NCBI GenBank assembly: GCA_003517915.1
Contig: DOZQ01000266.1
Location: 12,344-18,377, forward strand
Direction: 5' to 3'
Source of the DNA: Oscillospiraceae bacterium
Lineage (GTDB): Bacteria > Bacillota > Clostridia > Oscillospirales > Acutalibacteraceae
DNA: 6,034 bases
Below, one piece after another: positions 2,033 through 6,034 of this stretch. How positions within the stretch are numbered: the first letter of the stretch is position 1; every line of letters begins with the position of its first letter. A program made the translations under genes and the position numbers. A model generated the notes under the pieces. That model was not told where the DNA came from. It ran no database searches and was given only the letters and a program-made list of their open reading frames with translations.

Positions 2033-3595
2033 GTGGCACGTAAAAGCCGAAAACAAAATGATCGTGGCGTGCCCGTAGACGGAAGCAACTCTGCTGTTGC
2101 GTTTGCCGCCGGTTATGTACGCTTGTCTGTAACAGATCGAGACCACAAGGGCAACTCTATTGAAACCCAAAAGCATATGATACAGCGTTACATTGATGAA
2201 CATTCGGAACTTAGGCTTTACGAAATGTATGTAGATGATGGAATATCGGGTTCAACCTTAGAGCGGCCAGCCTTTTCAAGAATGATAAAGGACGCGGAAT
2301 CCGGACGTTTCCGATATATCATAGTAAAAGACGCATCGAGATTTTCGAGAAACGTGATAGACACGGGATACTATGTTGAGCAATATTTACCGTCTATCGG
2401 TATTGGGTTTATCTCCATCGGTGACGAATATGATTCCACCAAGAATCCGAACGGTATATCTTTTATTTTTCGGAATGTCGTTAATGAAGCGTATTCAATC
2501 GACACCCGAAAAAAGATAACGACTGTATTACGTCACCTTATGCGGGAAGGCAGCTATATTGGCGGCAGACCGCCATTTGGATATTTGAAATCCCTGGGAC
2601 AAAGACACCAACTGGTTGTGGATGAACCTGCCGCTCAAACTGTACGTCGCATTTTTCAAATGGCGGCGAATGGTGAAACGGTATCTTCAATAGTCCGGTC
2701 GTTGAATAAGGATAAGGTTATGACGCCAAGCCAACACCGGTTTAGACAAGGGATGATTCGAGACGTTGGTTTGGTCAGCAACATATGGCGAAGGGGAACA
2801 ATATCCAAAATTCTTTCCGATGAAGTTTATCTGGGAAACATGGTGCAAGGCAAGACAAAAGTCCTGAATCATCGGCAGCACAGAATTCCCTCTGTTGCGT
2901 GGATACGGGCAGAGAATACACATCGGCCGATCATCACCAGAGAGCTTTATGATGCCGCTCAGAGTGGACGCCGCATCCTAGATTGCTGCGATGACAAGAA
3001 GCCGCACAATGTTTATTCCCCCAATCTATTCAGAGGGAAAATATTCTGCGCTTGCTGCGGCGGCAGAATGGATCGGAAGCAGAACCATGACAGCTATGCC
3101 TATCGTTGCACGGCGCATTATGGAGTATCTGATAAAGACTGCGGTGTGCACATTGGTGAAGATCATCTTATGAAGATGGTATCCGATTCATTTATCCGTT
3201 ACGCTAAAGAATTACCAGAAGAACCGCCCGCGCCGTTAGACAAACGGGCTGTTCAGTCCGAGCTGGCAAGATTGCAGATAGAGATGTCTTCTTTTGATGA
3301 TACTACCAAAGAACTGTACGAAAATCGTATGGATGGTAACATTGCCAAGCAAGAATACGATAAGCTCAGAAAAGCGAATCAACAAGCGCAGACCCTGCAT
3401 ATGCAGCGGATGGCTGAATTGTCACGGCAGCAAACGGAGCAAAGGATTGTAGAAGCTGAGTGGCTGGAACTGAAAAACACATTGCATGGATTTCAAAAGT
3501 CGCTACTGCTAACACAAGAACTCATTGATAAATGGATCGAGCGAGTTGGGGTTGGGGCAGGCGATCAGATCTATGTTGAATTTGTAGTGCTTTGA
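2033..3595 (+). CDS. Large serine recombinase (site-specific integrase/excisionase)
   Basis: It cuts and rejoins DNA at attachment sites through a covalent phosphoserine link, in the manner of phage integrases and Tn4451 TnpX. Domains in order: resolvase catalytic domain at about 24-165 with nucleophile Ser32 in AGYVRLS, then DDGISGSTLERPAF and KDASRFSRN carrying the conserved arginines; recombinase DNA-binding domain at about 175-315 with GGRPPFGYL and ISKILSDEVYLGNMVQGK; zinc ribbon at about 333-375 with Cys339, Cys342, Cys359 and Cys370; then a Glu/Gln/Lys-rich coiled coil at about 403-495, as used by this class to control direction. Length of 520 is in the usual range and all key residues seem present, so it is probably active. 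GTG start, ribosome site at 2021-2026. It shares an operon with the Fic gene. Its attachment sites are not evident; the tRNA fragment upstream is more typical of tyrosine integrases. It could drive element movement or a local DNA inversion. Confidence 0.92.
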   Translation: MARKSRKQNDRGVPVDGSNSAVAFAAGYVRLSVTDRDHKGNSIETQKHMIQRYIDEHSELRLYEMYVDDGISGSTLERPAFSRMIKDAESGRFRYIIVKDASRFSRNVIDTGYYVEQYLPSIGIGFISIGDEYDSTKNPNGISFIFRNVVNEAYSIDTRKKITTVLRHLMREGSYIGGRPPFGYLKSLGQRHQLVVDEPAAQTVRRIFQMAANGETVSSIVRSLNKDKVMTPSQHRFRQGMIRDVGLVSNIWRRGTISKILSDEVYLGNMVQGKTKVLNHRQHRIPSVAWIRAENTHRPIITRELYDAAQSGRRILDCCDDKKPHNVYSPNLFRGKIFCACCGGRMDRKQNHDSYAYRCTAHYGVSDKDCGVHIGEDHLMKMVSDSFIRYAKELPEEPPAPLDKRAVQSELARLQIEMSSFDDTTKELYENRMDGNIAKQEYDKLRKANQQAQTLHMQRMAELSRQQTEQRIVEAEWLELKNTLHGFQKSLLLTQELIDKWIERVGVGAGDQIYVEFVVL

Positions 3596-3646: not shown

Positions 3647-3655
3647 GGGAGGAGG
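3647..3655 (+). promoter_or_regulatory. Strong ribosome binding site that fixes a Met-Gly N-terminus
   Basis: GGGAGGAGG ends 7 bases before ATG 3663, ideal spacing. An in-frame TTG at 3645 would overlap this site, and the next ATG (3672) is 16 bases away. The protein therefore begins Met-Gly-His-Met, which matters for the proposed N-terminal modification. Confidence 0.8.
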
Positions 3656-3662
3656 TCGTAAT

Positions 3663-4442
3663 ATGGGGCATATGCGGATAGGCTTTTTACCAAGAAGCAA
3701 ACAGTGGAACGAAATTGTCAATCAACTATCACTGTTTGGCGGAGATCCAACTGACGTACACCGGATTGCCGAGGCAACACTGTCAGCCATTCAAAATAAT
3801 TACAAGAAACTACCAGATGATGAGTCTATAATCAAGGCTGTGAGATTCCTTGCGATTCTTTCTTATTCTGCAAATCAAAGCGATCAGGAAAACTTCCTCA
3901 ACAAGAATGGTTATTCTGTAGATAGTGGTATGACGTTGTTTTCAATTCTATCGAGTGCGCAACAGTATATCAGTACAGAAACCGGATCGCTTGAAGTTAA
4001 TAAAATGGCACGCGATGCTGCAATGAAAGCAGTTATGGTTTATCATGACGCTCACAAAAGTAATCAAACAACGCTGTTCAGTGACGAAACAGAAAATACC
4101 TGGCGTTCTACTGGAACTGGTGCGGCATTTTGCGAGCTTGCGCGGACGTTTGTTGCAGAGTTTACCGACCGACAGCTTCGCTACTGTATAGAGCGCGAGG
4201 CTCCAAGAGTAATTAATGACCTCGGATTATTGAGATCGTTTAGTGAAACCTTATCCTCACAATCGACGGCAATATCAAATCATGCACTTGACACATCGAA
4301 ACTTATGCAATCTTGGGCGGCCGGTTGGTACAATAATAATTCAATATCCTCACTTCCATCAGATGTACAAGTGCGTCAATTCGTGGATTTCTCTTTCCGA
4401 AAAATGAGAGAGGAATTCAGGAGGGAGGTTGACGGTCAATGA
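3663..4442 (+). CDS. Uncharacterised MG-starting partner of a QueC-like/TIR protein
   Basis: The 259-residue product begins MGHMRIGFLPRSKQWNEIV. It has no signal peptide, membrane segment or catalytic motif I can see and reads as mostly helical and cytoplasmic: helices at about 28-50, 53-70, 112-130, 153-180 and 235-255, with a low-complexity loop at 133-152. Aromatic and basic patches ELARTFVAEFTDRQLRYCIE (158-177) and SWAAGWYNN (217-225) are the most motif-like parts; I have a weak memory of similar proteins beginning MG-x-MR, unnamed, but cannot verify it. Its stop overlaps the start of the QueC-TIR gene (ATGA), so the two are translationally coupled and probably partners in near-equal amounts. 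Methionine removal before Gly2 would expose a glycine, the kind of N-terminus reported for the target of QueC-like enzymes in type IV CBASS. QatB, which accompanies QatC, also starts MG as I recall, but I see no convincing wider similarity. The role as modified sensor or adaptor is inference. Confidence 0.8.
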   Translation: MGHMRIGFLPRSKQWNEIVNQLSLFGGDPTDVHRIAEATLSAIQNNYKKLPDDESIIKAVRFLAILSYSANQSDQENFLNKNGYSVDSGMTLFSILSSAQQYISTETGSLEVNKMARDAAMKAVMVYHDAHKSNQTTLFSDETENTWRSTGTGAAFCELARTFVAEFTDRQLRYCIEREAPRVINDLGLLRSFSETLSSQSTAISNHALDTSKLMQSWAAGWYNNNSISSLPSDVQVRQFVDFSFRKMREEFRREVDGQ

Positions 4443-6034
4443 CTGAATCAACTTCCAAAGTAGTAAATGTCACCTGCGGAGAACTTTGCGCGACTCGTGA
4501 TTGTTCATCTACAGATATTAATCTATTGCACAGAAATTTCAACGGCGTAAGCGCAAATGTTTCATTTGGGTATGAACAGTTTGTGAAAGACCCGGATAAA
4601 ATCCCTCAACGCATGCTCGATTTACTGCAAATTGCTTCATATGTTTTTTGTGCAGATCGAATGGCGAGTCGAGGTTCAAGAGAAAGCATAACAAATTCTG
4701 GGTGGGCAAGAACATTCAATGTAAAAATCCCCGTTCGCGACATCTCCTTTTGGGATACAGTGCGCGTGAAGAAGGCTTTGAACGATGTATTATCGTTTAT
4801 GACTGGTGACAGACGTTATGATTTTACGTTCGTCAAAGAGCAAAACTATAACCTGACCGACACAGTTTTTCAGCTCTCATTGTTTAACGAAGCTGAAAGT
4901 GAATTGATAAATGCTAAAGACGCCGATGTGATGTTGTTTTCCGGCGGACTCGATTCATTGGCTGGCGCAATTGAGCGTTTGAATGAAAATCCTACTCGAA
5001 AACTATGCCTTGTTAGCCACAAATCGAACAATACGTCTATAAGCATTCAGAACAAACTTGCTGAAAGTCTTGACCACGCATATGGCAACCGTATAATCAA
5101 GTACGGATTTGAATGCCGTAATAAGGACATGAAGACAAAAGAGGAAACTCAGCGTACTAGAATGTTTCTATTTTCAGCAATAGCATTTGCCATCTGTGAC
5201 AGGCTTCATAAAAATGAATTGTTCATTTATGAAAATGGTGTAACAAGCATTAATCTTCCCATACAAGCCGATACAGTCAATGCTCGCGCGAGCAGGACAA
5301 CACATCCTAAAACCATTGGATTACTCGAGCAGTTCTACAGATTGCTTAACCCGAGATTCGCAATTGTGACACCCTACAGAGACAATACGAAAGCAGAAAT
5401 CATTGAGAAGTTCCGCACTTATCGAGCGGAAAGTTTTCTGCCAAGTTCGGTGTCTTGCAGTTCTACAAGAAGTAAACCACAAGGTACTCCACATTGCGGA
5501 ACCTGCTCACAGTGTATTGATCGAAAATTCGCTATGTATGCAGTTGGACTTGATGAAGAAGATGACAGCTATGAAGCCGATTTTATATTGGATGAGAACA
5601 GTAATGAACTGCGCAATCGTCTTCTCAATATGCTGATGTTTGCAAACAGAATAAAAAATTCGACACCTTTTGAATTATGGAAGCATTCTCCGACGGATTT
5701 TTTCGATATTGTTTCATACTGGCAGGGGGACAATCCAGATGAAAAAATGGAAAAAGTAAGCATGTTACTGAATCGTTTCGCGGATTCTGTTTGGACAGCG
5801 TCAAAATTAATGTTAAGCAAAAACTATTCGCATGAAAAGGTTATCAAACCCAACTCTCTTCTCAGAATCTTAACGAGTCAAGAATATTTTGATTTGCCCC
5901 AAAGCGACACAATAACAGCACGAACGCGTGACTCAGTTTTTATAAGCTATGCACATGAGGACGAGGCATATATTGCTGAACTAAAGCCGTTTCTTAGAGT
6001 GCTGGAACGTGACTACAATATTTCATATTGGTAC
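4439..6034 (+). CDS. QueC-like PP-loop enzyme fused to a TIR domain (runs off right edge)
   Basis: The frame from ATG 4439 is open for 532 codons to the edge. Residues 1-160 form an N-terminal region I cannot assign. Residues 161-370 are QueC-like: the ATP-binding PP-loop SGGLDS at 168-173 (VMLFSGGLDSLAGA) and a zinc site of Cys340, Cys353, Cys356 and Cys359 in the QueC pattern C-x(n)-C-x2-C-x2-C, with QRTRMFLFSAIAFAI between them. QueC makes 7-cyano-7-deazaguanine from carboxydeazaguanine, ATP and ammonia. Here the extra domains and lack of queuosine genes point to the defence branch typified by QatC and Cap9. Residues 371-495 are a helical linker. From 498 the start of a TIR domain appears, SVFISYAHEDEAYIAELKPF then ERDYNISYWY; its catalytic Glu, if present, lies past the edge. 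TIR domains of immune systems often destroy NAD or make signals from it. Ribosome site GGAGG (4424-4428) is 10 bases before the ATG, inside the preceding gene, with a 4-base overlap. PP-loop and zinc ligands are intact, so the QueC part is probably active. Confidence 0.88.
   Translation, partial: MTESTSKVVNVTCGELCATRDCSSTDINLLHRNFNGVSANVSFGYEQFVKDPDKIPQRMLDLLQIASYVFCADRMASRGSRESITNSGWARTFNVKIPVRDISFWDTVRVKKALNDVLSFMTGDRRYDFTFVKEQNYNLTDTVFQLSLFNEAESELINAKDADVMLFSGGLDSLAGAIERLNENPTRKLCLVSHKSNNTSISIQNKLAESLDHAYGNRIIKYGFECRNKDMKTKEETQRTRMFLFSAIAFAICDRLHKNELFIYENGVTSINLPIQADTVNARASRTTHPKTIGLLEQFYRLLNPRFAIVTPYRDNTKAEIIEKFRTYRAESFLPSSVSCSSTRSKPQGTPHCGTCSQCIDRKFAMYAVGLDEEDDSYEADFILDENSNELRNRLLNMLMFANRIKNSTPFELWKHSPTDFFDIVSYWQGDNPDEKMEKVSMLLNRFADSVWTASKLMLSKNYSHEKVIKPNSLLRILTSQEYFDLPQSDTITARTRDSVFISYAHEDEAYIAELKPFLRVLERDYNISYWY

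Follow-up and report, generated by a model that had tools for sequence, protein, structure and literature searches.

We identified two overlapping genes, the first for a partner protein and the second for a QatC-type enzyme with a fused TIR domain, in a stretch of 6,034 nucleotides (nt) from an Oscillospiraceae bacterium (bases 12,344-18,377 of contig C280, 18,377 nt long; this whole stretch is referred to as the window). Judging from the sequences, the pair is genuine and conserved, a variant of the QatBC kind that has a TIR of its own built in. It is part of a wider family whose members differ in their C-terminal domain, TIR being one option among several. The cassette is probably related to the Qat system of phage defence, of which it would be a pared-down form. 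With the QatB-like, QatC and TIR folds that are predicted for its parts, we lean towards the reading that it works as a compact Qat-type, phage-triggered suicide switch, a QatB-QatC with its own built-in effector. An earlier reading made from the letters of the window (the sequence-only reading) had proposed a two-gene defence system of this general composition. The features of the pair are as follows.

3648..3655, + strand: Shine-Dalgarno-like GGAGGAGG ahead of gene 1, read directly from the sequence
3663..4442, + strand: gene 1, likely QatB-like partner, 259 residues, Met-Gly-His start; putative substrate and regulator
3663..3707, + strand: conserved tail MGHxRxxxLPxxxxW, residues 1-15 of gene 1, predicted to reach into the active site of QatC once Met has been removed
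4439..4442, + strand: ATGA overlap of 4 nt between the gene 1 stop and the gene 2 start, from the sequence
4439..6034, + strand: gene 2, predicted QatC-type protein with a fused TIR, 532 codons, truncated at the 3' end where the contig stops
4916..5557, + strand: predicted QueC-type ATP-pyrophosphatase core, about residues 160-373 (relative P0002 matched to QueC 3bl5 over 160-373 by VIA)
4940-4957, + strand: SGGLDS (PP-loop), from the sequence
5291-5308, + strand: SRTTHP, from the sequence
within 5447-5515, + strand: zinc cysteines, from the sequence
5558..5878, + strand: QatC-type C-terminal helical extension, about residues 374-480
5927..6034, + strand: TIR start, 36 residues, RDSVFISYAHED...YNISYWY (RDSVFISYAHED at 5927-5962)

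The ATGA overlap described in the sequence-only reading was confirmed. On the other hand, the promoter of its own that had been ascribed to the pair could not be upheld. The single sigma-70-like site just upstream of gene 1 on the + strand matched at only 9/12 positions, and the number of such sites in the scanned region (four) was not above that in shuffled sequences (2.5 +/- 1.6).

Gene 2 and its TIR domain

Gene 2 matched the QatC model of PADLOC with an E value of 8.8e-56 and the QueC model of Pfam with 27.4 bits, above the cut-off. With the NCBIfam QatC model NF041925 the score was 212.4 bits, below the cut-off of 280; eight fusions tested with this model gave 186-228 bits, and the true QatC in locus L037 gave 460. 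The canonical QueC model TIGR00364 remained far below its cut-off (15.4 vs 150.3 bits). Gene 2 has the N- and C-terminal extensions of a QatC-type QueC enzyme, and the corresponding C-terminal extension in QatC is part of the QatB-binding surface. The intact PP-loop SGGLDS and zinc cysteines reported in the sequence-only reading are present, and the PP-loop, SRTTHP and zinc motifs were invariant across 48 aligned fusions.

The frame of gene 2 is open from 4439 through the final base of the window. Since the window ends exactly at the contig end, its TIR is cut by the assembly and not by a stop codon. Pfam TIR_2 accordingly covers only its first 21 model positions here (13.1 bits, under the cut-off of 28). 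A search for relatives among 5.8 billion proteins scored 7,999 of them, accepted 4,366 as matches and listed the best 120. The nearest of those listed, P0002 (643 residues), is 85% identical across all 532 residues in the window, and comparison with it indicates that about 111 codons of gene 2 are missing. P0002 completes the TIR (48 bits), with a TIR fold assigned by VIA to residues 496-643 of its predicted structure. A truncated TIR had been named in the sequence-only reading as grounds for abandoning the proposal; the copy in the window is indeed cut, by the contig end, but the full-length relatives carry a complete domain.

At least 13 of the listed relatives contained Pfam TIR_2, of which 11 had 638-649 residues, and the remaining two, P0010 and P0014, had a shorter N-terminal part. 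Together with L011 and L012 from Poribacteria, these make 15 relatives whose TIR is complete, and the residues invariant among them included F501, Y504, D508, W531, D533, G539, S561, F564, S567 and E574 (P0002 numbering for E574). E574 occupies what we take to be the catalytic glutamate site of other TIR NADases. The equivalent residue, a candidate catalytic Glu, lies past the contig end in the copy in the window. The folds assigned to P0002 by VIA uphold the earlier claim that one polypeptide carries both parts; on the predicted structures, gene 2 joins an enzyme of the QatC/QueC type to a TIR domain.

The partner protein and its N-terminal tail

The gene 1 protein, which opens with MGHMRIGFLPRSKQW, is predicted to be helical. 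A Pfam scan gave nothing above cut-off, a sequence search of the PDB gave no match up to E 1, and hhalign of the gene 1 family against six QatB proteins revealed no homology. Foldseek with the gene 1 model found 0 matches at E <=0.001, and QatB was not among the 50 matches listed. Re-alignment of the model by VIA, the one aligner behind this result, placed QatB as the top match. A QatB-like fold is likely for the partner on this model; of the "unknown helical protein" in the sequence-only reading, the helical part stands, and the protein would not be wholly unknown.

As a result of a search with gene 1, 232 homologues were found among 1,697 candidates. An MG start was present in 108/120 listed homologues, and in 9 of the other 12 a GH occurred within 25 residues of the annotated start (the exceptions being P0135, P0143 and P0211), which bears out the weight given earlier to this start. 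In an alignment of 65 partners (A4) reaching down to 22% identity, M1, G2, H3, R5, P10, W15, Y174, W222 and K247 were invariant; only MG-starting partners were taken into this alignment, so that the invariance of M1 and G2 is partly due to selection. Without such selection, G2, H3, R5, P10 and a Trp at 14-17 were found in 37/37 readable genome partners. Among 70 viral partners, GH was found in 69, R5 in 65, P10 in 66 and the Trp in 39. Residues 1-5 of gene 1 had a predicted local distance difference test score (pLDDT) below 50. Proteins are seldom so conserved at their extreme N terminus, and a modified N terminus would require such conservation. One viral partner, L066:4108-4935, starts with MGN, the only clear exception to MGH among the readable starts in the loci.

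Occurrence of the pair

Single-protein scanning of genome contigs gave 62 pattern matches and no relative. When the genome contigs (GTDB) were scanned with an alignment (A1), 77 pattern matches led to 39 loci, distributed over Bacillota, Bacteroidota, Ignavibacteriota, Poribacteria, Planctomycetota, Chloroflexota and other phyla. From IMG/VR, 80 viral loci were kept of 120. A profile of the partner showed it to adjoin the QatC-like gene in 38/39 genome loci and 76/80 viral loci; the two-gene pair is conserved across many phyla, as the sequence-only reading had anticipated for a genuine system. As for the loci in which the partner was missed, the frame is open at the contig edge in L077, L089 and L091, only 217 bases separate the frame of L040 from the contig edge, and L127 has a 268-codon frame at 2632-3435, of a size suited to the partner, that was passed over by the 400-base distance rule.

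The motif [M/V/L]GH, accepted anywhere in the frame, was found in 106/114 partners. Of the remaining eight, six are truncated by the contig edge, L066 reads MGN, and no start motif is present in L130. The distances among partners and those among QatC proteins were correlated (Spearman 0.82, 81 non-redundant loci), and 0/999 permutations reached as high a value. Partners and fusions of the TIR type had longest contigs of equal size (P0008/P0131, 6,923; P0009/P0135, 5,842; P0013/P0137, 18,180; P0014/P0128, 7,613), suggesting that they lie together. Among 148 genomes comprising the host and its relatives, a full match was found in the host only, with one other weak match at model positions 458-575. 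The pair is rare in the host lineage and therefore probably moved in. A nuclease-type pair was also observed on a plasmid of Leptospira noguchii (L044:4219-6863), directly after an annotated IS982 transposase.

Interchangeable C-terminal domains

The segment of the fusion past about residue 490 differs among relatives. Clustering of 236 tails gave 126 of the DpnII/MboI type, 50 and 27 in two viral-type classes, 16 TIR, 5 trypsin-like and 12 in smaller groups; the TIR tails include the copy in the window, and the counts reflect the search design and not natural frequencies. Pfam matches above cut-off were obtained for TIR_2 (L011, L012, P0002, P0007, P0012), DpnII-MboI (L003, L016, L020, L022; L041 was below) and Trypsin_2 (L006, L008). 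A strict D...ExK pattern was present in 113/160 fusions. In the trypsin-like tails, GxSGG and DYAL were found in 5/5 and the His pattern in 4/5.

In a quick tree of 56 QatC cores, for which 13 of the 120 listed proteins were used and L035, L040 and L010 were left out beforehand, TIR occurred in two clades, and a single TIR clade was rejected (approximately unbiased (AU) test, p 7e-54). Two separate gains of TIR would be the simplest reading, the counts being unable to tell gain from loss. The tail of L014 is scored as "other" in the tree, yet it clusters with the nuclease tails and is cut at its 3' end; since L019 and L036 are also cut, the changes to "other" tails on the tree are upper values.

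The two viral tail classes account for 49 and 27 of the 80 viral loci and are almost confined to viral contigs, the larger being winged-helix- or helix-turn-helix (HTH)-like by Pfam matches below cut-off. These 76 relatives (within L052-L131; for example, L060:3879-5777 and L111:5827-7980) carry winged-helix-like or helical tails that are not of a toxic type, with an MGH partner in most. In them, the QatB-QatC switch may drive DNA binding. Five loci from Ignavibacteriota (L015, L018, L019, L025, L028) have short tails in the effector position, and no Pfam domain was found in the four scanned (L015, L018, L025, L028).

Comparison with known defence systems

In qat, defence requires both QatB and QatC, Gly2 of QatB and the active site of QatC, and QatBC alone protects against some phages (PMC13279940). 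Compared with qatABCD, the QatC part of the pair carries a fused TIR, and the gene 1 partner has no sequence homology to QatB. The start is MGTS in 6/6 QatB proteins, whereas gene 1 and its relatives have MGH, Gly2 being common to both.

Profiles for QatA and QatD, which recover the reference operons used to build them, revealed both in 1/39 genome loci, with 22/39 loci having at least 2.5 kb before and at least 1 kb after the pair. This locus, L037:7052-14744 from Larkinella punicea, has a nuclease-type pair followed directly by a complete qatABCD as a separate operon, so that two systems coexist. In Larkinella sp. C7, a 70-codon QatA-like stretch lies about 100 bases past the pair (L022:9827-10036) and may be all that is left of a former qat operon. 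In the host, no QatA was found before gene 1 in the contig (L002), the contig stops short of the place expected for qatD, downstream of gene 2, and no KAP NTPase was found in the 80%-complete genome. QatA and QatD accompany only about one-third of the QatC cluster (PMC13329287), as would be expected if there are many QatC systems of other kinds.

The pair resembles Type IV CBASS in that an enzyme of the QueC type adjoins a partner whose N terminus carries a glycine (PMC11996544, PMC13279940). However, gene 1 is no recognizable CD-NTase, having no Pfam match above cut-off and a model that best matches QatB. Moreover, the Tyr/Asp in the pocket of Cap9 that binds 7-carboxy-7-deazaguanine (CDG) is replaced here, and QatC-type extensions are present. 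As for SPARTA, which combines TIR-APAZ with a short Argonaute, no Argonaute match was found here, and the proposed sensing part would be QatB-QatC.

The accessible text of PMC13329287 names no effector fusion that we found, and the word TIR is absent from it, as it is from that of PMC13279940. No description of a QatC-TIR or other QatC-effector fusion was found in the accessible part of the literature searched, which did not extend to preprints. PADLOC (2023) and NCBIfam (2026) name only the QatC match of this predicted two-gene family, below threshold in NCBIfam.

Substrate of the QatC part

The sequence-only reading had assumed a deazaguanine precursor as the substrate. In this version, the QatC part would conjugate CDG to Gly2 of gene 1 as Cap9 does, with TIR as the output. 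The kept QueC fold, PP-loop and zinc site and the conserved Gly2 of gene 1 would all agree with this. However, QatC has Thr where QueC and Cap9 carry the Tyr/Asp that read CDG (PMC13279940), and the fusions resemble QatC here. SRTTHP was found in 156/160 fusion proteins, with T in place of S in one and no match in three. In 130 loci, among which the reference qatABCD loci are counted and the window locus three times, T-R-T was found in 84, S-R-T in 42 and no match in four. The (Ser/Thr)...Thr positions would be equivalent to T278/T280 of QatC.

We also examined the genes for CDG synthesis. In the host, the best match to canonical QueC reached only 19.7 bits, QueE gave no match, and a divergent QueD-like protein (L132:386-799) scored 43 bits vs a cut-off of 89. 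In favour of CDG, QueD was found in 31/39 of the pair-bearing genomes, QueE-like proteins in 24/39 and canonical QueC in 14/39, but the eight without a QueD match included none with QueE; many of the genomes in these tallies are metagenome-assembled genomes (MAGs), salvage and incomplete assemblies limit what can be concluded from them, and the L034 genome was outside the QueD search. In the host family QueD was found in 5/40 genomes, counting the weak match of the host, and the other four are those with the four best QueE-like matches. QueD matches passed the own cut-off of TIGR03365 in 0/39 and 0/40 genomes, and in 1/14 controls. Because the CDG-reading residues are replaced and the Que genes are sparse in the host and its family, we consider CDG an unlikely substrate here, and the earlier assumption doubtful.

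Proposed mechanism and alternatives

In the suicide switch that we favour, methionine aminopeptidase would expose Gly2 of gene 1, and the flexible tail would enter the QatC active site, as can be supposed from QatB (PMC13279940). The PP-loop enzyme, with ATP, would then attach a small acid to the N-terminal amine. This modification would set the QatB-QatC complex to a state responsive to a phage cue, upon which the TIR domains would associate and degrade NAD+, and the infected cell would die before phage release. Our confidence in this proposal, and in the broader one below, is slightly lowered by the tail motif, which varies more in viral contigs than in genome partners, and by the missing downstream side of the copy in the window.

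A natural fusion, with a QatB-like partner and mostly no QatA/QatD linked to it, suggests that the QatBC core controls an effector. In a broader proposal, to which we give a nearly even chance, QatB-QatC would be a general plug-in immune switch, a single sensor module with a modified N terminus, with various outputs fused at the same point (TIR in two clades, DpnII/MboI-type nuclease, trypsin-like protease, winged-helix-like DNA binding) and a chemistry other than the known deazaguanine conjugation. If this were the case, the fused outputs would reveal the role of the core, which is to switch an effector on. In PMC13279940, what QatC attaches to QatB and how phages are stopped are posed as open questions, and the QatC reaction could not be reconstituted. 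Fusions to TIR, nuclease- and protease-type domains offer simple readouts, namely NAD loss, DNA cleavage and proteolysis.

The pair could also act as a toxin-antitoxin-like guard, with gene 1 binding and restraining a QatC-TIR toxin until its loss or modification by a phage releases the TIR. Such an arrangement would suit overlapping genes with the partner first, the strong co-occurrence, and the toxic-type domains (TIR, nuclease, protease) in many members. A plain antitoxin, however, needs neither a conserved G-H N terminus nor a kept ATP-pyrophosphatase site, and the requirement of qat for both proteins and the QatC active site also speaks against a guard, which we regard as quite unlikely. 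We give still less credence to a TIR that serves in signalling or as a scaffold, forming a nucleotide messenger or filaments instead of depleting NAD+. On the upstream side, the only one available in the window, there is no partner that would read a messenger, and the slot occupied by TIR here carries executioner domains of the nuclease and protease types in relatives. The least probable of the alternatives, in our view, lies outside defence: a regulatory module of mobile elements, whose fused domain would bind or cleave DNA for control of the element. The two viral tail classes, which lack toxic motifs and of which the first is winged-helix- or HTH-like by weak Pfam matches, and the serine recombinase just upstream in the window are in line with this idea, but TIR, nuclease and protease domains and the defence genes among the neighbours are not.

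Neighbouring genes

A scan of 125/173 neighbour open reading frames (ORFs), hand-picked mostly by length, was evaluated from the best 25 families of each scan. The matches listed included type I and IIG restriction-modification, DISARM-, BREX- and Dpd-type models, AbiEii, and a DUF1848 protein of a defence reverse transcriptase (RT) model, together with phage integrases and resolvases. Defence-type genes occur among the neighbours of the pair in relatives, in agreement with the defence-island setting suggested earlier; this is presence, and not enrichment over a background. Upstream of the pair, the window contains the following genes.

843-2015: Fic-domain protein, SoFic-type in PADLOC, its C-terminal part weakly matching MarR; 17 bases ahead of the recombinase
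2033-3595: large serine recombinase with resolvase, recombinase and zinc-ribbon domains; ends 67 bases upstream of gene 1

The serine recombinase may have served the mobility of an element with which the pair arrived. In addition, minus-strand frames at 2-184 of the window and at L002:3746-4138 appeared transposase-like by eye, with undetermined bases between them in the scaffold.
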